In this document: piece after piece, positions 24,371 to 42,335 of the stretch
How the letters are laid out: every line of letters starts with the position of its first letter
How positions within the stretch are numbered: the first letter of the stretch is position 1
Origin: Eremomyces bilateralis CBS 781.70
Taxonomy: Eukaryota > Ascomycota > Dothideomycetes > Eremomycetales > Eremomycetaceae
Assembly: GCF_010015585.1 (NCBI RefSeq)
Contig: NW_022985070.1
Location: 124,001-188,000, forward strand
Direction: 5' to 3'
DNA length: 64,000 nt
The notes under the pieces: generated by a model
What the model saw: only the letters and a program-made list of their open reading frames with translations
Databases searched by the model: none
What the model was told of the DNA's origin: nothing
Made by a program: the position numbers and the translations under genes

Positions 24371-25820
24371 ATGGCGTTTGCGCCGCTCATTCAGCGATAT
24401 GGACTTGGTATCCTCGCGATCCTAAGTGTCATTAATCTATCAACGGCAGCGCCGTTTAACGCGGCATTAAACGTTGCCGATGCGCCATGTACGGAACCAA
24501 GAGTACGGCGAGAATGGTACGTGTGAGACGTTGTCATGAAGCGACGGACAAAGGGATGACACCGTGCAGTACCTCGTAGCTTACACAGATCTATAGGAGA
24601 AGTTTGAACGACGCGGAAAAGGGAGAGTACATCGGTGCAATAAAATGCCTGATGGCAGCGGCACCTACGGGAAAGCAATACTTCGAGCCCATCACAAGTC
24701 GATATGAGGATTTCGTTGCTATGCACGTCAATGCCACTGGTGGCGGTAGGGACTTATCAGCTGACTCAAACACCTCGTACTGACCTCACTGCAGGCGTCC
24801 TTAACACCGAAAGGGGTTTCCCAATGGGAGGTACAACAGGCATTCACGGTGTTGGGATCTTCTACCCCTGGCATCGATACACGGTCTGGCAGTTTGAAGA
24901 GACATTGCGCAACGAATGCAATTATACCGGGGCGCAACCATACTGGGATTGGCACTTGGACACTCCGGAGGCAGGAGGCTCATTTGTCACATCACCTCTA
25001 TTCGATCCAGTCACTGGGTTTGGAGGAAATGGAGCGGAGGATGAGGAGGATGATGATGAAGGGAGTAGGGGATGGGGAAGTGCGTTTGGTGGGTTCTTTG
25101 GAGGGGGGTCCGGAGGCGGGTGCATCCAAGATGGGCCGTTCAAGGACATCAAGCTGCATCTAGGTCCTATGTCGACTGTAAAAGTCGGCAATGAACGGTG
25201 TCTAACGAGGGATTTCCAAGGGGCATCGGTGAGCGCGCATGCCAATTATAGATTTCAGTGATAAGAACGAGGACTGATCTGATGTGTTTTAGGCTGAGCG
25301 TTCCGCAACCAAAGCAAATATCGCAAAAACGCTGGCAATCGACACATATGCATCCTTCCGATCATCCACTGAAGGGTCAAGCGGATTGCACAATGCTGGA
25401 CACGGCGGCGTGAGTGGAGAGGTACACAACCACACTCCCTTCTTTTTAACCACTATCCTCATCCCATCCACCACGTTTTTTTATACCCACCAACTGTTAC
25501 CAAAGTAACATTCACCCATGTGGCTCTTACTGACTGGTCTGTAGATGATGGATGTATTCTCTTCGCCCAACGACCCTCTTTTCTGGATGCATCACACCCA
25601 GATAGACCGTATTTGGGCCATCTGGCAGTCTCAAAGTGAGTCAAGGCTTGCAGAAATGGCCGGGACTACCCGGGCACCGGTGACACTGGACTCAATGTTG
25701 TGGATGGGGTTCAATGCTCCAGACCAACCTGTTCGAACGGTGATGGATACCCTCAATAGGAACGGCGAGGGCTTTTTGTGCTACAAATACGATGTTGGCA
25801 TAGAGGAGTTTGTAGATTGA
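24371..25820 (+). CDS. tyrosinase (short secreted type-3 copper oxidase)
   Basis: Five exons, 24371-24516, 24597-24745, 24795-25228, 25293-25421 and 25545-25820; 377 aa. An N-terminal signal peptide (LGILAILSVINLSTAAPF) is present. CuA ligands lie in VAMHVNATGG, GIHGVGIFYPWHRYTVWQFE; CuB ligands lie in GLHNAGHGGVSG and SSPNDPLFWMHHTQIDRIWA. The protein stops soon after CuB with no C-terminal plug domain, as in the short fungal tyrosinases that are secreted and sometimes act in metabolite pathways. Expected chemistry is o-hydroxylation of phenols and oxidation of o-diphenols; the true substrate is unknown. An unusual acidic and glycine-rich insertion (AEDEEDDDEGSRGWGS, then a GGFFGGGSGGG run) sits between the two copper sites. 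It is tail-to-tail with a broken Zn2Cys6 regulator gene. Confidence 0.92.
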
Positions 25821-26400: not shown

Positions 26401-29179
26401 CTACACACAAATCGGACCACTAGAAGAAGACGTGATGGCGAAGATAGCGGGGCCCACGTCTGATGGCGCTTTTTTCCAGAACTGCTGCTCCTGAAACTTT
26501 AGCACAGCCGAGTAGATATTCGTTGGCGGCATTGTCACTTCTTCTGCCTGTTCCGTGATTAGTAGAGCATCTGACAGGGTTGTCGGAAGTGATGACTCTG
26601 GAGTGAAGCTCCGCTTATGAATCAGTACTATTGAGTCATTCAATAGGGAATGGTAGAAGGGAACAACGGCATCGCGTTCGGCGAGGACTTCGAGGGCGCG
26701 CAAGTAGACGGCAAGTTTGTGGATTGGCGTGCCTGATAGTCGAAGAGAGCATCGGAGGAAGATATAGTTGATCGTCATAGGAACAAAGACACAGACAATT
26801 CTAGCCAGAGCATGTTAGCATCGCTCACGGAAGGGTATTTTCTTGGGTTGTACGCAGATTGGTATAAGGAAAACGCGGGGACGTACACTGAGACAGGGAG
26901 GTACTGCAGAGCATCCTTATCGAGCAGATCGGAGAGAATCGCCACTGTCAAAGTAGAGGACCCTTGGAGGGCTAGGTGAGAAGCGTCTCGCATTCTCGCA
27001 GCCCATATCGTAGAGCTAAGGCCTCTCTGAGCAGAGGCTGATTTGGTGAAGGGTGGAAGTGAGGTATCTGCAAGGATTTGTTAGAGTCGGATGGACGGAA
27101 GGGGTAGATGCGAAGGACATACTCGTAGGTCAGTCTCAAGTTGGCGAAGATGGCAAGGAGAGAATAGTAACTAGGGTCAGACTTTGGCGGATCGCTGCTG
27201 GTAAGCAATAATTGCGTATGGTTGGTCTGCCACTGTGCCAACAGCCCCTCACATTCCTCCAATTCACCCATGATTGATAACTTGCGGGGTTCGCCAAGCC
27301 ATCCAAGATACAATTTGGGCCCCATTAGAATGTGGCACAACGGATATGTAATGAGGGACAGATCAACCAGGGCCAGAAATATTTCGGAAAGCCTGCGTTT
27401 GACTTCAACGCTCAGGAACCATGGAAAGCGAGTATCTTCCTCGAGGTCCGAAGGTTGAAACGGCACCATTTTCACCAGCATTGCGGGATACAAATGCGCC
27501 CTGCGCAGACCCAGAATTTCCCACCGGACGCGCATGGAATAGCACGCTCGTAGGATATTCCATTGAGAGACCATACTTTTAGACTCGGCTGGTGATGAAT
27601 CGACGGGTGGCAGTCTGGCTTGCTGAAGCTGGTTGTGGGCTTCGAGCAGCCATTTCTCATCGTCAAACTCAGCTCGCGGATATATGCGCCCCTTGCTAAG
27701 TAAGAGGCAGATTCGAGCTTTATTCATAGGGTCTCGCTCGCATCCAGCCTCCAAAAGGGCCTATGAAGCGTCGGGGATCAGTACTTGGGTTTACACAGTG
27801 CGATCAGTGGCAAGAATCGGGAGCGTCCAAGGGTGCGGGGGGAAGATTGAACTGGGCGGCTTACAATAGTGTGGGTGTGAGGAGTTCTACGCATTACTAC
27901 AATGCTTGGGAATCCGGCGGCTTTCACGAGATCTTTTCTGCAACCTGCGTATACGATGATTAGCATATTGATATCGACTGCCAGTATTTTCCCGACATAC
28001 CGCACTAGCGGAAAACATAATAGCGTTGACCATGGCTAGACTCATTAGGCTAGTCGTTTCGCCGCCATTAGAGAGCAAAGGTTTTAACAGACTGTAAGTG
28101 TTCCATTCACTTATGACAGGGAAAATGGGATGAACATAGACAAAGTATAGGTTGATCAGTTCGCGCATGACGTCCTCCGTAGGAACTGAAAGGGCCTGTG
28201 AATTTACAACATCATGGTATGTAGGGCCACAGAGTGATGCCTTGCAGCAGAGAGCAATCCAGGAAACGGTGAAGGTAGTACAGGGATGTGTACAGGAGCA
28301 ATGATTATCCACCATGGCCACCGAGGGGTCTAGCTCAGTGGGTAATATGTTGACTAGAGAGCTCGAGTCAACTAGAGGGTTGGCTATAGGATTGGTGTCC
28401 ATCAAATCAAAATAGTTGTGGAAGTTGTAATCTGTGAATCCAGGAAAGTCATTAAAGAGTGTGGAATGATCTCCGAGATCAAGAAGAGGGGTATTTGGGT
28501 TCCTCCCCGGATCAGGCTTGCTTTGATCGTGCTGGAGCATGGTTGCGCCTGTGAGAGTGGTCATAGCTGTCCTACCCGACATACGTGCAGAGTAAGATGA
28601 GGCTGAAGGTGAGCATGGTGACGACTCTTCATCTGGCAATTCCTGGGAGGAGTTGAGACTTGGGTTGGACGGCGCAACCAGGTTCGGATAAGATGCAAAA
28701 AAGGCTTCCGCTAACCCAGACGAGGCGACTGGAGGCGGTAATCTAGTTGGTGAAGTACTATCGGCAAGCGAAACGTCAGGTAATAATGGAAACCTGTCCT
28801 GTCCGTTTGTGGGAGAGTTTTCATCTGCTATGGCCGAAGTGCGGCGGTTGTGATCCCTAGTCTTATTTCGTCTATGTGGATGGCTTAATATCGCTACGTG
28901 GACTGAGGAAGATGTACAAGGAACGGAATGAACCGACCTGCTGTAGGGAACACTACACTCAAACATCGTCCATTTGGCAGTTGGTGCAACTATCCGGATG
29001 TCGCAAGAGGACGTCGCAGCGCACCTTGCGGTTTCGGCACGACAGGCATGCTACACTATTAAGTCAGTCAAGTCCAAGTAGAATTTAGATTGCACGCTAG
29101 GAAATTCGCAGAATGATGCACTTTTGGCAGCGCGCCTTGAGCGACCTGGTTTTCGAGAGGAAATAGTTGATAACGCCAT
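26401..29179 (-). pseudogene. Zn2Cys6 transcription factor, frame-broken
   Basis: Starts at 29179 (MALSTISSRKPGRSRRAAK), intron 29051-29121, then CLSCRNRKVRCDVLLRHPD and CTNCQMDDV. At 28961-28963 a run of three T (coding strand) puts one extra base before the sixth cysteine: without it the reading would be DVECSVPY, a normal C-x6-C. Downstream come a Ser/Pro-rich linker, ELINLYFVYVHPIFPVISEW and SLLKPLLSN with MSLAMVNAIMFSASA, which open the fungal-specific regulatory domain. After introns near 28010 and 27900, WNILRACYSMRVRWEILGLR and the remaining helices follow. A second frame change lies near 26985 (RECETLL versus RDASHLALQG). Intron 26801-26886 leads into VCVFVPMTINYIFLRCSLRL and the end at 26401. 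With two frame changes in otherwise well-kept sequence the loss is probably recent; a sequencing error at the T run cannot be excluded. Confidence 0.8.
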
Positions 29180-29277: not shown

Positions 29278-29768
29278 TAGGGCTGGACACGAATAAGGAT
29301 TTTGGCTATTCGTATTCGACTTTTCCTCTTGAACGATTATTCGTATTCGACTAAGTTTTGAGACGTTTTATTCGTATTATTCGCGAATATTCGTAAATAA
29401 TGCCAAGACTTATTCGGCAAAAGCTGAGCCAATGAATGAATGCCCAGCAGTCGCGACTTTTGTTTACCCGAACACGATCTGGAGGATTTGAGCTCTAAGA
29501 GATACAAAGTATATCAATAGCGTCGAATTGATCACTCCTGACGATTCAGCAAGCCAAGTGACCCCAGCTCAAAGCTCTTTGTCGACCATCTCTCCGATGC
29601 GAGATACATGGAAATAGCTTCAGAGATAGACGAATAATTACGAATAATTACGAATAATGCGAATATTATTCGTACGAATATTAGTAAGCGGAAATTCTAA
29701 ATTTTATTCGTATTCGACTACGAATATTCGTACGAATACGAATAGTCGAATATTCGTGTCCAGCCCTA
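29278..29768. mobile_element. hAT-type MITE with intact 8-bp target duplication
   Basis: A 491-bp non-coding element. Ends are inverted repeats tagggctggacacgaat (29278-29294) and its exact complement (29752-29768). The octamer attgtaaa flanks it on both sides (29270-29277 and 29769-29776), the 8-bp target duplication expected of hAT. The interior is AT-rich and made of many short palindromes of the form cgaatattcg and attcgtattcg near both ends, so the strand could fold extensively. Perfect ends and duplication suggest a recent insertion. It lies just upstream of the broken Zn2Cys6 gene start. Confidence 0.93.
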
Positions 29769-30177
29769 ATTGTAAAGTCCTAGTTGTTGGGATTCAAATT
29801 GCGGATTATTTTAGATGTAGATTTTATAGTTAGATACAGAGACTTGTTCTTGAGGTTGGTTGGCATGGTTCTGTGTGGCTAACAAACGATATAACTATCG
29901 CTCGGATATACCATATCCCCTTGATGGCCGTCGCTGCAGGGCTCAACTTCCTCATCAAAACCTGTTTTCACCACCAAATTCGACTAACTTGCCCACACAA
30001 CCACTTAATTGCCTGGAATTTTTGGTCGGAAATGAAAGAAATTCATAAATAAAATGTAAAAGATCGTATTAAAAAAATAGTATGCTAGGGCGACGTTCTC
30101 CCGGCGGTCGAAGTATCGGCCACGGGGGTTAAAGCCCCTGGTAAGACACCCTGGTCTTTGAGCACTGCAGCCATCAA

Positions 30178-30198
30178 GGGGCTCGGGCGCGGAGCCCC
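30178..30198. repeat. GC-rich hairpin
   Basis: Stem ggggctc (30178-30184) pairs with gagcccc (30192-30198) around a 7-nt loop. It could be the terminal hairpin of a Helitron-like element, but neither the 5' TC end nor a convincing CTRR 3' end was located. Confidence 0.5.
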
Positions 30199-30531
30199 GC
30201 AACATAACCCCCTCGCTATCACTTCCTAGCGACTCCGGGAAATGGTACACTGTAAATACCCCACGGCGGCCTGGGCATGCGACATACCTGTTCCTCGAGC
30301 AGTCAAGCGGAAGCCTTTCCCATTCCACAGCTCCAAGGTTATATAAATCCTCATTGGCATAGATATGGATTGTGCAAGTAGATCTGAAAGATTGTTCAGT
30401 AGCTACGTGCTAACTAGTGTTAGTTAGGAATAGTTTAGGAATAGTTACAACTTTTCAACAGGCGATTTGGACTTCCGAACAGGCGGATGGTGAACATAAC
30501 TAATATCCCGAAGCCGCTGCAAAGGTTCTGA

Positions 30532-30574
30532 CTGCAGTGGAGGGTTTCTGCCAGGAATTATGGGCACCTGGAAA
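30532..30574 (+). repeat. inverted copy of isomerase 3' coding segment
   Basis: Matches the reverse complement of 30866-30906 with an uninterrupted 21-nt core (the part coding for EGFCQE on the minus strand) and similar flanks. The two copies face each other about 290 bp apart. Confidence 0.75.
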
Positions 30575-30682
30575 TTGCGTTTTGTGTAATATTCGACAGC
30601 GTAGCGCGTTTTATTTGCCCATACCCAGTTAGCCAACCTAACCGCTAGATATTAGTTCATAAGCCGGCTAAATGCAGAGAGT

Positions 30683-30707
30683 TGACCTGAAAATCGTTTT
30701 CAGGTCA
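30683..30707. repeat. near-perfect palindrome
   Basis: Arms tgacctgaaaa and ttttcaggtca, 11 bp each, with a 3-nt centre. Confidence 0.85.
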
Positions 30708-30850
30708 GGTTCGCCCGATTTCCAGCTCGTTAATTGGCTGATCTGTTAGCGTACCGTATAATTACAGAAACAAAATCACGTGTGCTTATCACGTGCCTTA
30801 AATTTGAAAATAAAAGAGGTATAGCGGCACCGCTTAATCAGCGGATTACA

Positions 30851-31144
30851 GCTGTCGAGCCTGATTTTCAGGTGTTCCACATATTCCTGGCAGAAACCCT
30901 CCAGTTCTCCTCGAAGCAGCCCATATACATCTGCTGCCGCCTTCTGCTTCCACTTCTCTGCCCACTCCCGTGCGACGTCACGCATCTTATCTGGTGGCGC
31001 AATCGCATCGACAATCCCATCTTTAAGTGCCTCTTTCCCAGTATAACGATGCCCCTCGAGCAGGACCTTGCGCGCCACTTGTGGAGCCAGCTTTGATTTC
31101 ATAAGCGACCCAATGCCCGCTGGCGGTTGCAAAATGTGAGAGAA
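30851..31144 (-). pseudogene. enoyl-CoA hydratase/isomerase family, C-terminal fragment
   Basis: About 98 residues of the crotonase-fold C-terminal half: PPAGIGSLMKSKLAPQ, ARKVLLEGHRYTGKEALKDG, IVDAIAPPDKM and VYGLLRGELEGFCQEYVEHL. This corresponds to the part after the CoA-binding and catalytic loops of fungal peroxisomal ECI1-like proteins. The first half of the enzyme is absent. The fragment follows a piece of acyl-CoA ligase almost without gap, so two gene relics are joined. Not functional. Confidence 0.8.
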
Positions 31145-31170
31145 CGCTTGGCGTTTTTTTGAGTGTGTGT

Positions 31171-31350
31171 GTCGCCGTCCAGGCTTTCGAGCAGATTGTT
31201 CCGGCATGTCAAGATGTCGCTTAAAAACTGCTGGTGGTTGACCTCATGTCCGGATTTTTTGTCACGGATGACAGACGTATTCTGGCGGACAGCAAGATTG
31301 TAAAGGGTTTGAGAAATGAGATCGAATGCCAGCACATTCGGGCCTTCCAC
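31171..31350 (-). pseudogene. AMP-dependent acyl-CoA ligase, N-terminal fragment
   Basis: About 60 residues, GPNVLAFDLISQTLYNLAVR, QNTSVIRDKKSGHEVNHQQF, LSDILTCRNNLLESLD, resemble the start of fungal acyl-CoA ligases of the malonyl-CoA-synthetase-like group (substrate-side helix preceding the first adenylate-forming motif). None of the AMP-binding motifs is present. The similarity is moderate. Its position against the isomerase relic and beside an alpha/beta hydrolase supports the call. Confidence 0.5.
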
Positions 31351-31894
31351 TGGTGCAAAGAAATCGGAACAATCAAAATGCTCCTCGAAAGGGACTCTTA
31401 AACAAAGAGTCCATGGTGAAATATTTTGGAAATCGTCAATTCGCGAAACTGGTTGTTATTGACTTACTCAAATACAGTAACTATCCGGATTCCAGAAGCT
31501 TCAGAGTCGTTTGTCCGAGGGTCAGTGACTGGTGTCGCAACCGTTGGGCAGAGTGGTCAAAAATAACTCTATCATGTTTTGGTATGGCAATACGTATGCC
31601 TCGGGTAGAGTATAGAAATAGTATTGGTAATGTACAATTTCGCCGCAATGAGGGAATAGTACGAAGATAACGCGCTGTGACGCTTTAAGGGCATATTTTT
31701 ATATCGTTAAGGTGCTCTTGCTGTAAAGATGGCTAGCGCCTATTAATACTAACTATAATGGGCGTGGGATGTGAGTACTGCTAGTAGTATTGAATATACA
31801 CCACATTCAGACCATATCATTGATGACTTACTCATCCAGCTTTCGACAGCAAGACTTTGTTCAAGAGGTCAACGTGCTTCATTTGTTATCATAA
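31351..31894. other. intergenic
   Basis: About 540 bp, no gene recognised; 3' flank of the hydrolase. Confidence 0.45.
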
Positions 31895-32677
31895 CTATAG
31901 GCTGCCCCTAGCAGGTTCGATGTTGGCTAGGAAGTTCAAAAGACCTACGTTGAACGCTTGAGGTTGGTCAATGTTTGCCGCATGACCAGCGTCAGCTATA
32001 ACCAGCGTTTTGCACCCAGGAATTGTCCTACTCATATAGTCTGACCCCGCCAGAAATGGGGTATCATTGGCACCAACAACAACCAGTGACGGTACCTTGA
32101 TGTTGGGCAGGGACTTGATAACCGCAGGACTCTTTTGTATCAACATCCCTCTCCCCGCCAATGCCAATCCCTTTGCGTCTCGGTGCGTCGAAGTTTTCAT
32201 TTCTACGCTCATTTTCTCGAGACGGCGCAGCCCATGCTGTTCAAACCGCTCCGCCGTTTGAAGAGCATACTTATTCCATCCATCACGCGCTGCGTCATTC
32301 TTGAAGCCCGGGCCGGTGTCGATGATCAACAACGCCTTAACACGCTCAGGGTGAGCAAGGTAGAAAGCAAGCGACATGTATCCACCTAGTGACAAACCCC
32401 CGACGATGGCTCTCTTCGTTCCGCAGACTTCGGCCAGGATGGCTTCCATATCAGCCACCGTGTGCTGTTCGCTGTACATCGCCGGATCTTCCGGGTAGTC
32501 AGACTTGCCATGGCCGCGCATATCCCATAGGATAAGCTTGAATCTTGCCGAAAGCAGAGCTATCTGGCCAGACCACATTTCGGAGGTCGCGGAAAAGCCA
32601 TGGGAGAGGAGGAGCGGGGTTCCGCTACCGTACGTTGCGTAGTAAAGCGATACACCTGAACGGTTGATATATGGCAT
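31895..32677 (-). CDS. alpha/beta hydrolase
   Basis: Single exon, 260 aa, ATG at 32677. Seen: PLLLSHGFSATSEMW (oxyanion-hole HG), WDMRGHGKSDYP, the nucleophile elbow VGGLSLGGYMS with Ser96, the acid in VGANDTPF (Asp205) and the His in ADAGHAANIDQP (His232). Length and motif order match the soluble esterase/3-oxoadipate-enol-lactonase-like group. No signal peptide is seen. The substrate is unknown. Intact, although its neighbours on both sides (ligase and isomerase fragments, acyl-CoA oxidase relic) are dead; it could be the last working member of an acyl-modifying cluster or may have a separate role. Confidence 0.9.
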   Translation of the reverse strand: MPYINRSGVSLYYATYGSGTPLLLSHGFSATSEMWSGQIALLSARFKLILWDMRGHGKSDYPEDPAMYSEQHTVADMEAILAEVCGTKRAIVGGLSLGGYMSLAFYLAHPERVKALLIIDTGPGFKNDAARDGWNKYALQTAERFEQHGLRRLEKMSVEMKTSTHRDAKGLALAGRGMLIQKSPAVIKSLPNIKVPSLVVVGANDTPFLAGSDYMSRTIPGCKTLVIADAGHAANIDQPQAFNVGLLNFLANIEPARGSL

Positions 32678-33562
32678 ATTTGATGCATCAAATGGCTGGA
32701 TATTTCAAATCGTGGAGTGAGAAGTGGAGTTGGACAGTTTCTTGCGTTTGGTAGTCAAAAGTGGTATCCATAAGGCACTGGGTGAGCGATGCGTGCCAGG
32801 ATTTGATGGGATAACTAACGTATACAAATCACGGGGTTGTTCAATTGCCCCCGAGGCAATGCACCAATTGATAGGGAAGAATATTTGCAAGGCCAGAAGT
32901 CCTCGGGACAACTGGCTATCGGCTCAAGGACGACACGGACAGGCAGAGGCTTCCCAGCGCCTGTTGTGTCCAGAGTTCTGTCTCAAGACGTCATGGCGCT
33001 TCAAAGGGCGCTTGGATGATTACCTCTTTCACTCATATTTATGCACGGTTCCTCTGTAGAATTACTCGGATTCAGGCACAATGACTGATTTTGTTGGAAA
33101 TCTCAAGCCCGCGCCAGCGCGCCCATGCTGACGGAGTGAAAGCCGTGGCCCGGGAGCGCCAACAAAAGTTCCAATGTCCCATTTTGGCAGATGAGCTAGC
33201 GGAGCGCTTTCGTGCGATATCCACATTGTAAAATATGCACGTTGTTCTCTCCCATCTTCTATGCAATATTTAAATCTCCTAAATCCCGATCATGAGCAAT
33301 TGAGCTATTATATGAATTGTGAATCGACTACTCTTCTCCTAGTAATTATGGAATGATGGTCTGCATTATCACAAGTCTGTTTGCGCTACCGTACTGGATG
33401 GAAATTTTAACATTTTAACCCATATGTTCACTATGGATACAATACACAACACGAACAAATATGAATTAAAAGTTCATGCTACTGTCTCCGACTACGCCTT
33501 GCCTCTGTAAACTTCCTGTTCTGGAATTTGACCACCATTGCGACCTACATTTTGCTTGAAAC
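32678..33562. other. intergenic
   Basis: 885 bp including the presumed hydrolase promoter; nothing else recognised. Confidence 0.45.
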
Positions 33563-35191
33563 CTACGGGCTTTCCGGGTAGTTTTTCCAGAGCTGACGAA
33601 CTCCGCGAAGAGTAGGTAGAATGAAGTTTATATCATTCATATCATTCTTGTAAACACGTTCCATGATTGCCTCGTATGGTATCTTGTCCTTTTTCGTGAA
33701 TGTGCTGTCAAGTTCGAATTCGGTGAATGAGTATGCATCCAGGATAGTATCGAGATAGCTATCAAAACCATAAATGACGTTTTCGAGTTCAAGGTGTAGG
33801 GCATCCACATCCCTTTTTGTGAGAAAGTTGGTACCGGCAAATGTGGAAAGGCCTTCTCGAATTGTACTCAGTGCGAACTAAATGGGAGAAATACCAACTA
33901 TCCGAGTAGTATAAGCATGAAGTCACTGATGCTTACCACTTGGAAAAGGGCTACGAGTGCCTCTTTCCCCTGTTCCGGTGCAAGTGAAAGCTGTGATTTG
34001 AATCTTCTCCAATAGCTGAGATCACTGTGAGCCATCGTAAACTCAAGACACTCGTAACTGGTATCTTTGCCTCTTGCAGCCTCTTCAAGGTGCCTTTCTG
34101 CAAGAAATGCAGCACGAAACTGGAGAACGACCTCTTGAACTTCGGGCTGAAGCCAGGATACAAACGATATTTCATACTTGCATACTCGATTACTCTCGTC
34201 TCTGGGCCATTTGGGGTGGTGTTTCCGAATTGGCGTCTGAACTGTACGCACTTGGCCGCGGCATATAGCGGCTTCATTACGTCAAGGTCTAGTTCATCAG
34301 CGAGCGTGCCCCGAATGATCACCATGGAAGCGGACGAATGCTTGTTTGACTTGGCTGCAGTGTAAGTTCCGTCATTTGACACAGAACTGGAGCCGGCAAA
34401 CATGTGAGACCTTGGAATCCTGGAGGTGTAAAACCCCATGATACCATTGTCAATGCCGCCCAGTGCTCCCAGTGCTCCCAGTGTCTTCTCGTCTTGGTCA
34501 TAGATTGTGATATTGGGCATGATCTCGTGAGTGTCGAGATCGTGAACTTGGACCATGATGAGATGGTTGCCATGCTCCTCCCCGTTAATGATGAGCCGTG
34601 CCACGACAATGGCGTGTGTTGACCAACACCGGAGAGCTCCAATCCAGAATTTGCTGCTCGAAATTGTAGGCGAGCGGAGGACAAATTCATCAGTGGTGGG
34701 GTGAAAGGTGGCGGTTGTTTCTATCCGGTGCAAGTTACTTCCATGGCCATCTCCGTTTGAGCGTAGGCTCCGATGATTTCAAAGCGATTGGCCTTAGGAA
34801 TCTAGTATGCTTGCTGTTGCGGACTTATCTGGGCTTCGAGATTCTTGATGAAAACTGTCATCTCCATCAATATAGACTCACAACCACGAAAGAATGGAAA
34901 CTGTATACTTCTAAACTGGCCATAGCAAGGAACATCACCAACCATGCGTCCTGCTTCCAAAAAATTCTCCCTGCTCCACCTCTTTTGAAACCATACATTG
35001 ATCAACTCTTTTGCTTGTTGGGCTCTATAGCCGAAGTAATCTTTCCTTGCCAGGGCATGGAGATTGACGTTCTTGCGGAAAGTTGGGTGGTCGGCCAAAC
35101 TCTCCAAGATTTCGCATCGCCGCTTAAGCCGGTCTTCGCCCCAAATAAACTTGGCCAAAGGTCCAGTATTTGGCATATCAACGTTGGCCAT
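33563..35191 (-). pseudogene. peroxisomal acyl-CoA oxidase, decayed and internally shortened
   Basis: Read from 35191: WGEDRLKRRCEILESLADHP and the N-terminal helices (AQQAKELINVWF, FRSIQFPFF), then EIIGAYAQTE and GSNLHRIETTATF, the flavin-binding signature of acyl-CoA oxidases, then FWIGALRCWSTHAIVVARLI, NGIMGFYTSRIPRSHMFAGS and FRRQFGNTTPNGPETRVIEY. The sequence then jumps to C-terminal helices (FRAAFLAERHLEEAARGKD, YECLEFTMAHSDL), an intron at 33878-33936 and the tail FALSTIREGLSTFAG to the stop. The second alpha-helical segment with the catalytic-loop region appears to be missing and the frame is broken in several places. Acyl-CoA oxidases carry out the first step of peroxisomal beta-oxidation. 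No PTS1 tripeptide is seen at the end (YPESP). Confidence 0.85.
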
Positions 35192-35819
35192 GTCGAGTTG
35201 ATGGAGATAAAGACCTCCAGAATAGATTCAAGGACGCCCCTGGAGAGGATTCCAATTCCAATGCAGCGGCGATTGTTATCCTGTGTTGAGGTCTTAGGTC
35301 ATCTTGACTTAAATGACTAGTGCCATTTCGTGGATCCTCTTCCATCCTAATTATGCTATTATTAATAATCCGCAACATGGTGATTGCGGTAGCAGAATTG
35401 TAGCCGATAACCAGGCCCGTGGAAGTGTCGGTTCGGTGCGGACGACCGAACAATTGTCCCGGGGCTACCATGGGCACCCCACTCGGGCACTCTTCGGGTG
35501 GTCGTAGCGCTGTGGTGCCCTAAACGTTACCCCATGGGGATCGTCTTCTCCGATGACGATCGAAAACAAATCAGCCTTTGTCCGGAAAGCCCGCCGTGAA
35601 TTCAGTGACAGCGGCGATGATAACGTCGGACTATCCTACTATTAATACCGCTGCCGGCCACGTGTTCCCATTGTCCTTATCGCTGTAAGGGTATGGAGAG
35701 TGGAGGACCTCGCCGCCAAGGCACTGTTCCAGCGAAGAGAGTAATGTTCAAGGAAAATAGAACGTCTGGCGCGATCTTGACGCAACAGTGATAAAACCCA
35801 AAAATTGGGTAGTATGGAT
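35192..35819. other. intergenic
   Basis: About 630 bp; no gene recognised. Confidence 0.4.
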
Positions 35820-36263
35820 CGACTAGCCGCTCCCCCCTTTCCCTTTCCACAGGAAGGGAGGCTCCGTTCCACCAAATTCTCCAAGCCCAAATATCAAAAA
35901 TCCCTGCAACTGGCTGTCGCAGAGCTCGGCTATCATCCAGTCCCCGCCAGGGTGAATAAAAGCAGACTTGCACTGGACTCCTCCAATAAGTGAGGGCTCC
36001 CAAGAACTTATAGACCTGTACATAAGACTAACCTCGAATCCTGACTAGCATCTGTCGAATAGGACAATGCCGTCGAAGATCTAGAACTCTATCCAGTAAC
36101 CGACACGTTCGGCGACGCCTTCTGGATACGTTTCGTCATATTTATACTCGCCGTACGAGAAGGCTGTCGGGGGCAGAACTTCCGAGAGAACTATATCAGC
36201 AGGGAGATCTGAAGCGAGAGGCATTAGAGTAAGTTCAAGTGGTCGAAGGCCGCCCTTGGCCAC
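35820..36263 (-). pseudogene. relic of an unidentified fungal gene
   Basis: A protein-like trace runs down the minus strand: ASDLPADIVLSEVLPP, AFSYGEYKYDETYPEGVAER, VGYWIEF, stop, IFDGIVLFDR, stop, SGFE, a plausible 60-nt intron (GTTAGT...CAG) and CKSAFIHPGGDWMIAELCDS. The pattern of conserved-looking aromatic and acidic residues, a well-placed intron and two in-frame TAG codons suggests a dead gene. I cannot name the family with confidence. Confidence 0.4.
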
Positions 36264-37077
36264 CTTGATTAGGAAGATATCAAATCATGGCATGCGATCA
36301 TGACCAGTTCGAGAAAGCGGAGGACGAACTCCGGGCTCTTGAACGTCGCGTTTTGATAAGCTTGGATGACCTAACAAAATAAGCTGCTGCCGAGATAACG
36401 AGAGTCCCCTTTTCATGTACCATTGAATTAAAGCTCAATATCTCCAAAGAGAACTGGCCGTGAAATGTATCCCAGGCGCGGAATGCATCATCACAAAGTC
36501 TCTTCGTGAACACTCTGCCACCCAACAGTGTAGTGAGAGGTGCTAGAGTTTGAGGCTCCGTCCATGATTAGTGCATAAGCTTGCCTAGCTTTGTTTGTAT
36601 TGACCACCCGAGTTACGCAATCTTCGAGTGTCTAGAAACGTTTGGGAGATAGTACATGCGCAGGAATCTTTGTGGCGCTCATTGTTGGTCTTCTGCTACA
36701 AACATTTCTCTCTGTTGGAAGTACAACGAAGAATGAAAATTCTAAGTGGTACTATCGTAAGTAGATACAAATTCAAATGGCAGAAGTGAAGTGGGGGTGG
36801 GAAGAAACAATGAAGGGGGGGTATGGAGACACTAGAACGGGGCTGAGGAAGGGGACGGAGACACTAAAAGGGGGAAGCAGGGTCCGAAGTATAGCTGCAA
36901 AGGGCACATCCGCAACATTTAACATAAAGCCTAGGACATCCTATGTATACTCGTTTCTTCTTCTTAATCACCTGCATTTGACTGCGCGGATGGTTGGCAG
37001 TTTACGAGTCCTACATCCCGTCCAAGCTTTTCGTAACTACAAGACCCGAGGATGCATTTTTATGCTATACCTCGCCG
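36264..37077. other. intergenic
   Basis: About 810 bp. The stretch 36800-36880 is purine-rich (ggggg and gaaga runs). No gene recognised. Confidence 0.45.
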
Positions 37078-38399
37078 TTAGAACGCGCCGTTAGCCCCAA
37101 GACCTTCCGACTTGCCATTCTCATGCCCGTTCGCAGTACCGATAGCATGGCCATTCGCCCCCAGTCGTTCCAGTCTCTGGCTCAAACTCTCACTCCTTTC
37201 TGGGTCCCAGAACGGACGCTCTCCATAGACCGCAGTTCGCTTCCCTTCCCGTAGCGTGACGTCGTAGCCACCAGGAATGGCGCGATGGACCACCGAGCGG
37301 TTGTCCCAGAACGCGACGGATCCTGGAGTCCACTTCCATCGCACCGTGAGATCATTAGCTTGAAGGAGGTGTTCGCGGAGGAAGGCGAGAATGTGGTGTG
37401 ACTCTTGGCCGTTTAGCTCCTCAATCCGCTCGATAAAGGTAGGGTTATAGTTTAACACTTTGAGTAGAGTTACTGGGTGCGTTCGGACCTATCATCATCA
37501 TTAATCTGGTCCTAAACGAAAGTTGAAGTTCGTACCAGGGGATGTGCAGTTGCAATTGGAGCTCTGTGAGGTGAGCCACCACCATTGATAGATGCAACAT
37601 ATGCCCGCTGCACACAGTCAACGCTGTAATGCCACTGCTAGGGTCGACTCAAGTCAAATGCTTACATCCGAAGAATGAATACCATGTAGGCCCTCGAACG
37701 CCTTTTGAAATGTTGGGCTGAGTTTGTCAAACAGAGCAGTTTGGCTAGTAAAAATGGTGTCGCCTCCATATGGCGGAGTCTTAACCAAGCGCAATAACGT
37801 GTAGGATGGCGGATTGACCTCAAAAGAATGGTCCGCATGATACTCGCCCCCGGAGTGGCCATGGGCGCGGATATTTCTAGATAGAGTCAGTCGAGGCATT
37901 TCGCTGGCCTTGAAATTGGACGTACCCTCCGCGTCCAATAATGGTCACATGGTTTGGATCTTGCTGATTTGGGTCTCTATCTTGCTATAAGATATCAGCC
38001 ATGGCACTCGGCATGGAAAGGCACGTATCCTACAATGCCATAATGGGCCGCCAGCGCATGTTGCTGCTCCAGAGTAATATCTTGATCCCGGAGTAAGACC
38101 ACACCCCGCTGTTCACTATTAGCATGATATCCGGATACCAAAAGGGATACAAAGAATACCTCAGCAACGAGTAGAGCTAGCTCATCCTTCTGCTGGTCGG
38201 TCAACTGGCTCAATTGGATTCCTTTCAGCTCTGTTCCGATGTATGGAGTAAGGTCCTCGGCTGCTGATGCTGCAGAGAGAAGCGACCTCTTCTCCGTGTC
38301 AGCGAAAAAGGCCCTATCCTTGGCAGGAGTGAACTCTTTGAGAGGAGGGTCAGGTGGCGAATACGCCAATAGAGCTGGAGTGATGGTGTTCTGAACCAT
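37078..38399 (-). CDS. TauD/TfdA-type alpha-ketoglutarate-dependent dioxygenase
   Basis: Six exons: 38160-38399, 38034-38108, 37926-37984, 37666-37876, 37536-37607 and 37078-37488; 355 aa, all junctions in frame. Seen: AFFADTEKRSLLSAASAAED, PYIGTELKGIQLSQLT, RGVVLLRDQDIT, DPNHVTIIGR, the iron site GGEYHADHSFEVNPPSY with His138 and Asp140, TPPYGGDTIFTS, the distal His in DNRSVVHRAIPG (His287) and the 2-oxoglutarate Arg in GKRTAVYGERP (Arg303). All catalytic residues are present. Fungal members degrade sulfonates (yeast Jlp1) or other small acids; the substrate is not predictable here. A short C-terminal tail is Gly/Asn-rich with a repeated GANGH/GTANGH pattern. Divergent from the DUF427 gene across an 820-bp spacer, so co-regulation is possible. 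Confidence 0.92.
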
Positions 38400-39221
38400 G
38401 GTAGCAGTGGAATGTGCTCAAACAGTGGGTGTATAGTGTATACTGAACAGTTTTGGATTTTTGACGGGAAATGGAACACCTTTGACAAAGAAAATAGATG
38501 CCGAGACTCCTCGGGAGTGCTATAGATCATAGATAGTAACCTCGTATTTGTCATTTCTGCGTTGTCAATTCATCAAGGGCGGCCAAATCGTAGAGGAGCT
38601 ATCAGTCATCCAGGAAATATTTCCCTTAAGGCCTCCTAACGCCTTGGTTTGATTCGCCATTACAGAGTCATATCATGTCATCACTTGATATGTACGATGA
38701 TCACGACATCACGTCGTAAAACAAGTAAAACAAGGCACTTATCCCATCTGAAGAAGCTAAAATTGTTGCTTAGAATTGAAAGCAATGAATCGTGAGTAAC
38801 GAGTGAGGTGAGAGGCAAGAATCTACTACGTAAACCCCTGTTGGAGTATTGAACTATTCCTATTCCGGATGCCCACATCTCGGGCCGACACATGTCTGAT
38901 TACTACTCTAGATAAGGAATCCATCTCTACTCTTTAGCTGAGCATCTTGCGACATATCACGCCTAAGCTCCCATGACTAATTGAACAGTCAAGAGTGCCA
39001 TGTGGTTGCATATCGGATAGCTAATAGGATTATGGATTGGATGAGGGATCAGAGGAGTTACCCCACCTCGTAAACACCCTGGCAGTGGTCGGCCGTCCGA
39101 ACTCTGGCCATATTTGAATTACTCACTCACGAGAAACAATAACAATGTCCCCTTAGGAGTGAACATCAAGAATCAAACGAAGCGTATCAAACAAGAACCG
39201 TCCAAATTCGAATCCTTCACA
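38400..39221. promoter_or_regulatory. divergent promoter region, TauD / DUF427
   Basis: 822 bp between two start codons facing away from each other; no open frame with support. Specific operator sites were not identified. Confidence 0.5.
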
Positions 39222-40123
39222 ATGTCTCCGCCAGATGTAGTAGCGGTCACCGAGCTTCTCAACCAGACACCCTTCCGGATCCTAACGGGTGGAAAGCAGT
39301 TAACATTAGCATTTGGAGGACTTTATATCGCATCAACAACCTTGGCGGCAAAGCCGTTATTAATCTGGGAGACTGAGAAAGGCTACCCTCGCTATTATAT
39401 TCCAATCGAGTCTTTGCATGCCGATATCCAGTCTCACCTCGCAAGCTCATCGCCTGGAACATCCGTTTCGCTTGCAACTGTGGACACAGTGAATTGCAAT
39501 GGATCACAAGCAGTTATTGAACGTCTTACTGTGGGATCAAAGACGACGCCCTGGGTACGATTTCTTGAGGGGCCTCTGAAAGGACACATCAGGTTTGAAC
39601 GCAGTGAAATTGGTCAGTTTGCACTTTCGACGCTCAATCTATCCACTAACATTGGTTTTGCATAGACGATTGGTTTGAGAATGGCTCTATATTTGCAGGC
39701 ATCAAGAACCCGTACAAAAGGATTGACACTGACGCTGTTGCTCATCACATTGTTGTCAAAGTCGATGGCGAAGTGGTTGCGGAGACCAATGTGGCTGTCT
39801 TACTCACTGAAACCAACGCAGGAGAGACATACTACCTCCCAGCCACAAGCATCAAGAATTGGGGAGCTATTGAAAAGAGTGACCTGAAAACCGCATGTCC
39901 TTACAAAGGAGAATCGTGGTAAGTACGGGGCGGAGTTCTTCGCCGTATACGGCTCAGTCTGACATACCCCAGGTATTTCTCTCTCACAGTCAAAGGCCAG
40001 AAGCACGAGAACCTGATCTGGTATTATCAATACCCAACTCATGAGAGTTCTGCAATTCAGGGTCTGATCAGCTTTTACAAGAAGGATTTCGTCGAGTTAT
40101 TGGTCGACGGAGTAAGAACTTGA
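39222..40123 (+). CDS. DUF427 domain protein
   Basis: Three exons, 39222-39612, 39666-39918 and 39973-40123; 264 aa. The ATG at 39222 follows cttcaca and opens MSPPDVVAVTELL. Two DUF427-like beta-folds are apparent: an N-terminal one with ETEKGYPRYYIPIESLHADI and a C-terminal one with HIVVKVDGEVVAETNVAVLL, TYYLPATSIKNW, the conserved TACPYKGESWYFSLTVKG and a terminal KKDFVELLVDG. The function of the family is unknown. The C-terminal CPYKG signature is intact. The gene could share its promoter region with the TauD gene and is followed on the same strand by a transporter gene 364 bp away. Confidence 0.88.
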
Positions 40124-40486: not shown

Positions 40487-42335
40487 ATGGCTCATATTTC
40501 GGATGCCAGCTGGTCGGGGTACGACCTTAAAACCGACAATAAACATCACGACGATCGGGAGACTGACAGTAAAAGATTGGAGACACAGCTAGAAAGCAAG
40601 AAAGCAGCTCAAGCGCAGGATCGGGCACTTGACGATAGCTCCTCGGACTCTGTCCAGGAAGTTTTCGATGTCAAAGCATTTGACCCTGTACTTGGTCGGA
40701 AGATGGCACTTGCCAACAAAGCCATCGATGACATCGGGATGACCAGATTTCAGTGGAAGTTGTTCTTCCTCAATGGATTTGGATATGCTGTCGACTCGGT
40801 AAGTCATCAACTACTGCCCTCCTCATGGAAGCAAGTTAACTAACCCCATTCCACTGTAACAGCTCCTGGTCGTGAATCAATCAATTGCGAACCCAGCCGT
40901 TAAGCGCGAATATGGGCAGCCCGACAAACATATTTCGGGCATTCCACTTGCATCACAGGTTGGTCTTCTTGTCGGTGCTGGTCTTTGGGGGTTTACCGCA
41001 GATATCATCGGAAGAAAGCTCGCGTTCAATACCAGTCTTTACTCTTGCGCCATCTTCGTCCTGATTGCCGGAGCCATGCCCAACTACATCTCATTCGCGA
41101 CGCTGTAAGTGCTCCATCCAAAGATAGGAGAGCTCATACTCAAGCCGTGTCCAGTGTGGCCCTCTACTCAGCAGGTGCCGGTGGGAACTATATCCTTGAT
41201 GCCACCAATTTCCTGGAATTCCTGCCGACCTCACATCACTGGCTGGTCACCTTCATGGCTGTCTGGTGGGCAGTTGGCTACATGATCACAGGTTTCTTCG
41301 CCTGGGGCTTCATGAGCAACTTCTCCTGCTCCCCGAAGGCAACGTCTGAAAGCTGCCACCGCGCGGACAATATGGGGTGGCGATACCTCCATTTCACCAG
41401 TGGTGCACTGGTCATCGTTCTGGCATTTATCCGAGTCTTCGCCATTAAGATGGTGCAAACCCCACGTTGGTTGGTCAGCCAGAACCGAGATGAAGAGCTG
41501 ATCCAGATCCTCGACGATTTGGCAAGGAAGCACGGTCGATCACATTCTCTGACGCTGGAGGAGCTTTCAGGCCAAGGCACAGTTGCGCATACCGAGAAGT
41601 CGGTCTGGTCTTCATTTCGACTGAAGAAGCATGTCACGGGTTTGTTCCAGACAAAAAAGCTGGCGTGGTCGACGACACTGATCCTGTCCAATTGGTTTGT
41701 CATTGGAATGGTCAGCCCGCTCTACTCAGTGTTCTTGCCATTCTATCTTCAATCTCGCGGTGCCGAGTTTGGTGACGGTTCGAATTATCAGACTTGGAGA
41801 GGTGAGTTCTTCCGATACAGTCTGATTCTGTTCGCCCTAACTCTTCGTCAGACTATGCTATTAATCATGTGGTGGGTATCCTGGGTCCAATCATTGCCGC
41901 AGTGTTGGTTGAAACGCAGTACATCGGTCGTCGGGGCACATTAGCCATTGGCGCAGCTACGACCATGGCGCTACAGTTCGGCTACACCCAGATCACGAAC
42001 GAAGCCGGGAATGTGGGATTGTCTTCTGCGATCAGCGCTGCGTCGTAAGTTCTCATTTCTTCAAACCGAACTAGTACTAACTAATATGCAGCAACATCTA
42101 TTACGGCACAATCTATGCCTATACTCCGGAGATTCTTCCATCCGCTCATCGTGCTACCGGATATGGCCTTTGTGTTGTGGTTAATCGCATTGGTGGTATT
42201 CTGGGGGTTCTTGTCGGAAGCTATGCTAATGTCGAGACTACGGCGCCGCTGTTTGTCTGCGCAGCTTTGTTTGGCTTGCTCATTATTCTCAGCTTGCTGT
42301 TACCGTTTGAATCCAGGGGCAAGAGAGCGCAGTAG
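40487..42335 (+). CDS. MFS transporter, SV2/metabolite:H+ symporter-like
   Basis: Five exons, 40487-40798, 40863-41104, 41155-41801, 41852-42044 and 42092-42335; 545 aa. A hydrophilic N-terminus of about 75 residues precedes KAIDDIGMTRFQWKLFFLNG, the family opening, then GYAVDSLLVVNQSIANPAV, the loop-2 signature GLWGFTADIIGRKLAF, AGGNYILDATNFLEFLP, PRWLVSQNRDEELIQIL and a C-half with YAYTPEILPSAHRATGYGLC and VNRIGGILGVLVGSYA. This arrangement is shared by fungal proteins related to animal SV2 and bacterial aromatic-acid carriers. Substrate unknown. Adjacent to a dioxygenase and DUF427 gene, it may move the dioxygenase substrate, which is inference from position only. Confidence 0.92.

Follow-up and report, generated by a model that had tools for sequence, protein, structure and literature searches.

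The window analysed here comprises 64,000 nucleotides of the fungus Eremomyces bilateralis CBS 781.70 (contig C4, 124001-188000; the genome holds 26,628,646 bases in 62 contigs), and we focused on its positions 29777-38399, where an earlier note had described the remains of a gene cluster for acyl modification. All five genes named in that note were found on the minus strand within less than 9 kb, namely a piece of an acyl-coenzyme A (acyl-CoA) ligase, a piece of an enoyl-CoA hydratase/isomerase, an alpha/beta hydrolase, an acyl-CoA oxidase and a TauD/TfdA-type dioxygenase, and the hydrolase and the dioxygenase are intact, as had been claimed. Read from right to left, the order is TauD, a stretch of interrupted open reading frames (ORFs), oxidase, hydrolase, ligase piece, hydratase and regulator; the dead stretch extends to the left of the region first outlined, down to the end of the decayed regulator at 26975. 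The coordinates are collected in Table 1. ORFs were scanned against Pfam regionally (122 of the 159 ORFs of at least 38 amino acids at 29.05-39.12 kb, E 0.01, 10 families) and window-wide (74 of 125 ORFs, E 1e-5, 22 families; outside 29-39 kb, ORFs of 110 amino acids or more). Homology comparisons covered the fungus's own genome, a prokaryote genome collection, PDB, Pfam and NCBIfam; gene searches of the own genome were run exon by exon, and all counts from them are lower bounds. The gene content of the window is fungal (Pfam Fungal_TACC and Fung_rhodopsin), with short introns.

Table 1. Features of the relic and its intact genes (window coordinates; MITE, miniature inverted-repeat transposable element)
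Feature	Position	Strand	Basis
Zn2Cys6-type transcription factor, decayed	26975-29057	-	three-frame translation
Hydratase/isomerase C-terminal tail beyond MITE	30445-30537	-	C25 hydratase tail similarity
MITE inside hydratase, 364 bp	30539-30902	.	inverted ends, target-site duplication
Enoyl-CoA hydratase/isomerase, C-terminal half	30906-31119	-	Pfam ECH_1, C25 similarity
Transposable element tip, 53-60 bp, at ligase/hydratase junction	31120-31177	.	genome repeats
Acyl-CoA ligase, N-terminal fragment, about 80 residues	about 31177-31413	-	C25 ligase similarity
Alpha/beta hydrolase, intact, intronless, 260 codons, bacterial type	31895-32677	-	Pfam, bacterial relatives
Acyl-CoA oxidase pseudogene	33563-35191	-	Pfam pieces, own-genome relatives, tomato ACX1A
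Interrupted short ORFs, possibly further relic	35230-36600	-	by eye; no Pfam family assignable from ORFs scanned
TauD/TfdA-type dioxygenase gene, intact, 6 exons, 355 amino acids	37078-38399	-	Pfam, gene model, PDB relatives

The hydratase has been cut twice, once at the junction with the ligase piece and again by the MITE, beyond which its sequence resumes in the tail at 30537-30445. Pfam recognised the C-terminal half (ECH_1 in ORF 30779-31243, E 1.4e-9, profile positions 131-197 of 251), which is 53-55% identical to a hydratase on contig C25 of the same genome; the tail, compared one to one as a separate piece, shares 62.5% over 16 residues with the tail of the C25 hydratase (E 4.5e-5). Besides itself and repeats (the MITE four times, the transposon tip ten times), the hydratase piece found only the C25 hydratase, at 53%, among at least 16 matches in the own genome. 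The inverted ends of the MITE begin GGAGGGTTTCTGCCAGGAAT, and a 3-bp target-site duplication, AGT, stands at 30536-30538 and 30903-30905; copies of almost full length on C30 and C32 show 94% identity, partial copies lie elsewhere, and the duplications at three other copies inspected are ATT, ACT and ATT. The transposon tip occurs at 16 places in the genome, the window copy included, and at nine loci inspected (eight distinct places) the repeat continues past the ligase-side boundary and stops at the hydratase-side boundary. Most of the length of both ligase and hydratase has been lost at this single junction. The junction could be explained by insertion of the element into the hydratase, accompanied by a deletion that reached into the element and removed most of the ligase, which would have fused the remainder of the hydratase to the start of the ligase.

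The ligase fragment expected by the earlier note is present, though at the position given in Table 1, nothing ligase-like being recognisable at 29777-30440. Over 46 residues its identity to the N-terminal end of a C25 ligase is 41% (E 1.2e-5 against 17 loci; E 9.3e-6 against 60 kb of C25), and none of 500 shuffles of its first 80/83 residues reached the 33.9 bits of this match (best shuffle 27.7). The other 16 loci compared gave no match at E below 0.9. The piece had no match in Pfam or NCBIfam, its three PDB matches (E 0.5-0.6) were unrelated proteins, and the AMP-binding profile matched none of the 122 regional ORFs at E 0.01. An untargeted own-genome search with the piece returned 12 matches, 11 of which were transposon-tip copies and the other the piece itself, and missed the C25 ligase; the AMP-binding search of the genome, in which 14 of 75 candidates were scored, did not have the C25 ligase among them. 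Two more AMP-binding genes were observed at C4 196050-209151, 8-21 kb past the right end of the window, one of them in a frame of 1223 amino acids.

The oxidase, previously described as shortened, is broken. Three Pfam pieces remain (N domain in 34805-35227, 3.8e-11; C-alpha1 in 33954-34778, 4e-7; C-terminal domain in 33566-33877, 6.5e-6), and they correspond to residues 54-136, 178 to about 380 and 598-688 of an intact oxidase ORF of 725 residues on contig C1. The first piece is separated from the second by an in-frame stop and a frame change, the middle of about 150-200 residues has no confident match, and one GT-AG intron survives at 33878-33936. The middle piece matched at least three loci of the own genome: apart from its own, these were on C1 (94.5 bits) and on C25 (91.5 bits). 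The identity between the window oxidase and the C25 oxidase is about 29-32%.

Further to the left, inspection by eye revealed a Zn2Cys6-type motif at 29054-28950, beyond which the reading frame is interrupted by stops and shifts; neither of the two long ORFs of this regulator relic had a Pfam match at E 0.01. The description as heavily broken holds for the genes other than the hydrolase and TauD, although a single lesion may still be a sequencing or assembly error. Repeat-induced point mutation (RIP) was considered as the cause of decay and rejected: in their dinucleotide indices, judged by the usual thresholds, the relics of oxidase, ligase/hydratase and regulator resemble the rest of the window. 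The nearest to RIP-like values were found at 29.2-30.4 kb, which consists partly of simple repeats (indices 0.87 and 1.04). Adjoining the relic, 29300-29780 is rich in TATTCGTACGAATATTCG-type repeats, and a short self-inverted repeat lies at 29705-29744.

The hydrolase stands whole among these relics, with Abhydrolase_1 in ORF 31898-32704 (E 3.5e-26). Its best two paralogues in the own genome are only 31% identical over about 105 residues. In the prokaryote genomes, 221 of 244 pattern matches encode relatives of the hydrolase, and (alpha)proteobacterial proteins among the matches listed, including alpha/beta hydrolases of Bradyrhizobium and Caulobacteraceae that are themselves bacterial, are 61-66% identical to it over about 255 residues. 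Alignment, tree and neighbourhood counts were based on the best 80 of the 221 relatives, 71 of them titled Bradyrhizobium. Of the 98 columns found to be near-invariant (at least 99% conserved) in this set, 94 are retained in the window hydrolase, and leave-one-out bacterial controls kept 98/98, 98/100 and 98/104. Such retention is hardly expected of a gene decaying like its neighbours and suggests that selection probably acted on the hydrolase until recently; it may still be in use. Horizontal transfer appears likely; the midpoint-rooted tree of these 80 relatives with this fungus alone, in which the fungal branch is long (about 1.0), gives neither its direction nor its age.

The best NCBIfam profile for the hydrolase was TIGR02427, 3-oxoadipate enol-lactonase (PcaD), at 107.1 bits against a curated cut-off of 255.85 bits, which places it outside PcaD by this test. 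Its bacterial relatives lie near a dienelactone hydrolase at 72 of the 80 loci, a possible hint to lactone chemistry, and near an HD-domain gene at 59; the dienelactone hydrolase family was not found in the window ORFs scanned (122 regional, 74 window-wide). It was also considered, and rejected, that the hydrolase had arrived as part of a bacterial ligase/dehydrogenase operon: the C-terminal part of the C25 ligase matched at 1 of the 80 bacterial loci and the acyl-CoA dehydrogenase of locus L060 at 2, while the other three C25 queries matched at none of the 80 at E 1e-8, some of these loci being short.

The TauD gene was modelled with five GT-AG introns of 47-58 bases each and a single open frame of 355 codons. 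PF02668 was detected in three ORFs, 37081-37488 (4.7e-16) and 37657-37944 (4.9e-14) above the curated Pfam cut-off and 37998-38417 (5.7e-5) below it. An ORF break near 37.93 kb had the appearance of a frameshift; this was dismissed because a 49-base GT-AG intron at that point, together with the four others, restores the frame. The spliced product holds HAD (HxD) and VVHRAIP with the distal histidine, residues to which we ascribe, as an assumption, their customary roles, and its PDB relatives are among taurine and phenoxypropionate dioxygenases. TauD is an intact neighbour that, like the hydrolase, may or may not have belonged to the cluster.

A comparable set of genes was found on C25. At 117594-127042, an acyl-CoA ligase, an acyl-CoA oxidase, a Zn2Cys6-type regulator and an enoyl-CoA hydratase lie side by side within about 9.5 kb in open frames, from which, rather than from full gene models, they were judged apparently intact; the relatives of the window hydratase and oxidase are about 5 kb apart. 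The regulator was assigned by eye and had no NCBIfam match. The set shares three enzyme families and a Zn2Cys6-type regulator with the window relic, but differs from it in gene order and orientation, in an oxidase that is not close and in an unmatched regulator; in the window, the hydrolase lies between the oxidase and the ligase/hydratase pieces. The earlier note would have given up its reading had no species carried the pieces together; ligase, oxidase and hydratase do adjoin on C25, in the same species and not in a relative. Since ligase, oxidase, regulator and hydratase stand side by side there, the window pieces plausibly belong together. We consider it probable that the stretch is a dead CoA-linked cluster of beta-oxidation type with a surviving bacterial-type hydrolase.

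Several observations weigh against this reading. The regulator relic does not match the C25 regulator, its best matches in the 60 kb of C25 compared having E 0.15 and 0.28. The ligase piece is short, C25 was chosen for comparison since its other two genes had already been found, and the N-terminal exon may be missing from several of the other 15 ligase loci. Tomato ACX1A gave 140.6 bits with the window oxidase, clearly above both own-genome oxidases; a search of the 60 kb surrounding the C25 set (148058-149532 of it masked) found no counterpart of the hydrolase or TauD; and an acyl-CoA dehydrogenase resembling that of locus L060 is seldom a neighbour of the bacterial hydrolases (2/80). Some of these points would suit a chance graveyard, in which unrelated single-gene pseudogenes and live genes share a stretch struck by transposons and never formed one pathway: the window oxidase is not close to that of C25, neither TauD nor the hydrolase has a counterpart there, and bacterial hydrolases are seldom near ligase or dehydrogenase genes. 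Against this view, matching ligase, oxidase and hydratase families stand together again in the same genome, and of at least three oxidase loci in the genome, two lie near hydratases that match each other. We regard this explanation as unlikely, while giving it some weight.

The families shared with C25 could also be read as debris from a segmental duplication of the C25 set. The identities are only 53-55% for the hydratase, 41% for the ligase and about 29-32% for the oxidase, gene order and orientation differ, and the regulators are unmatched. The window oxidase resembles plant ACX1 more closely than it does the C25 oxidase, so that the two sets did not arise by simple copying of a single ancestral cluster. 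The C25 set was accordingly rejected as the duplicated source of the relic, and this explanation, largely refuted, is highly improbable. A literature survey judged by titles and the beginnings of abstracts gave no on-point report of an oxidase-ligase-hydratase cluster.

The dead beta-oxidation-type cluster that we favour would have served the CoA-linked shortening of an organic acid. The ligase would convert the acid into its CoA ester, the oxidase would desaturate the ester, the hydratase/isomerase would hydrate or shift the double bond, the bacterial-type hydrolase may open an ester, enol-lactone or thioester, and the Zn2Cys6 factor would turn the cluster genes on. We infer that the genes of the relic once worked together as one unit and that this unit was peroxisomal. 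Peroxisomal targeting commonly depends on a C-terminal consensus, the type 1 peroxisomal targeting signal (PTS1). On C25 the ligase and the oxidase both end in AKL and the hydratase in AKI, all of them PTS1-like; the oxidase relic ends in ESP, the hydratase tail in EKL and the hydrolase in GSL, none of them canonical. Transposon insertions would have contributed to its death, namely the one at the junction with its deletion and the MITE in the hydratase tail, together with smaller lesions in the oxidase and regulator; the hydrolase and the adjacent TauD gene remained whole. Going further, a captured alphaproteobacterial hydrolase may have been built into a peroxisomal acid-degrading cluster and kept alone after transposons destroyed it, now with a different function, for example in the opening of lactones or esters; we offer this only tentatively and hold it to be less likely true than false.

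The locus offers a readable example of how a fungal metabolic cluster dies, by insertion of transposons, by deletion and by small lesions spread over the genes, and whole genes can be distinguished from broken ones. If the hydrolase is confirmed as a retained import, it would follow that a captured gene can outlast its cluster. The C25 set would be the intact parallel of the relic. The dead stretch is flanked by a tyrosinase-domain gene (24653-25258) on the left and by an ORF without Pfam match (39045-39662) and a sugar-type transporter (40904-41941) on the right.

The earlier note had likened the locus to Alternaria clusters for decatrienoate-type metabolites and had taken the oxidase as a fit for such a set. 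As far as the excerpted text of PMC9134587 goes, the AK-toxin genes comprise AKT1 (carboxyl-activating), AKT2 (hydrolase), AKT3 (hydratase), AKT4 (HMG-CoA synthase), AKT7 (P450), a regulator and a polyketide synthase, with AKT1-3 reported to be peroxisomal; an excerpt of PMC8878860 places AK-toxin genes on chromosomes under 2.0 Mb. Contig C4 is at least 1.5 Mb, and its size is no argument for or against a toxin cluster. Polyketide synthase and HMG-CoA synthase were absent from the Pfam families of the 122 regional and 74 window-wide ORFs, though such a cluster may be dispersed; the lone KR-profile match was a short-chain dehydrogenase ORF, P450 profiles matched 2 of the 74 window-wide ORFs, and the only heme-binding motif detected is at 13.6 kb, far from the relic. 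An acyl-CoA oxidase is present in the window but is not named in the gene lists seen in PMC9134587 and PMC8878860, which speaks against a decatrienoate-type set. The hydrolase is of alphaproteobacterial type without canonical PTS1, and housekeeping genes (AAR2 and ribosomal S11) lie on the same contig. With these results the Alternaria link was not upheld, and we consider remains of a host-selective toxin cluster of the AK/AF/ACT kind very improbable. The AK-toxin genes are described with polyketide synthase, HMG-CoA synthase and P450, and the likeness to the window is one of enzyme families: in the accounts excerpted, AKT1-AKT3 of Alternaria alternata bring together a ligase, an alpha/beta hydrolase and an enoyl-CoA hydratase, and the same three families lie together in the window, in agreement at family level and with the ligase piece weak.

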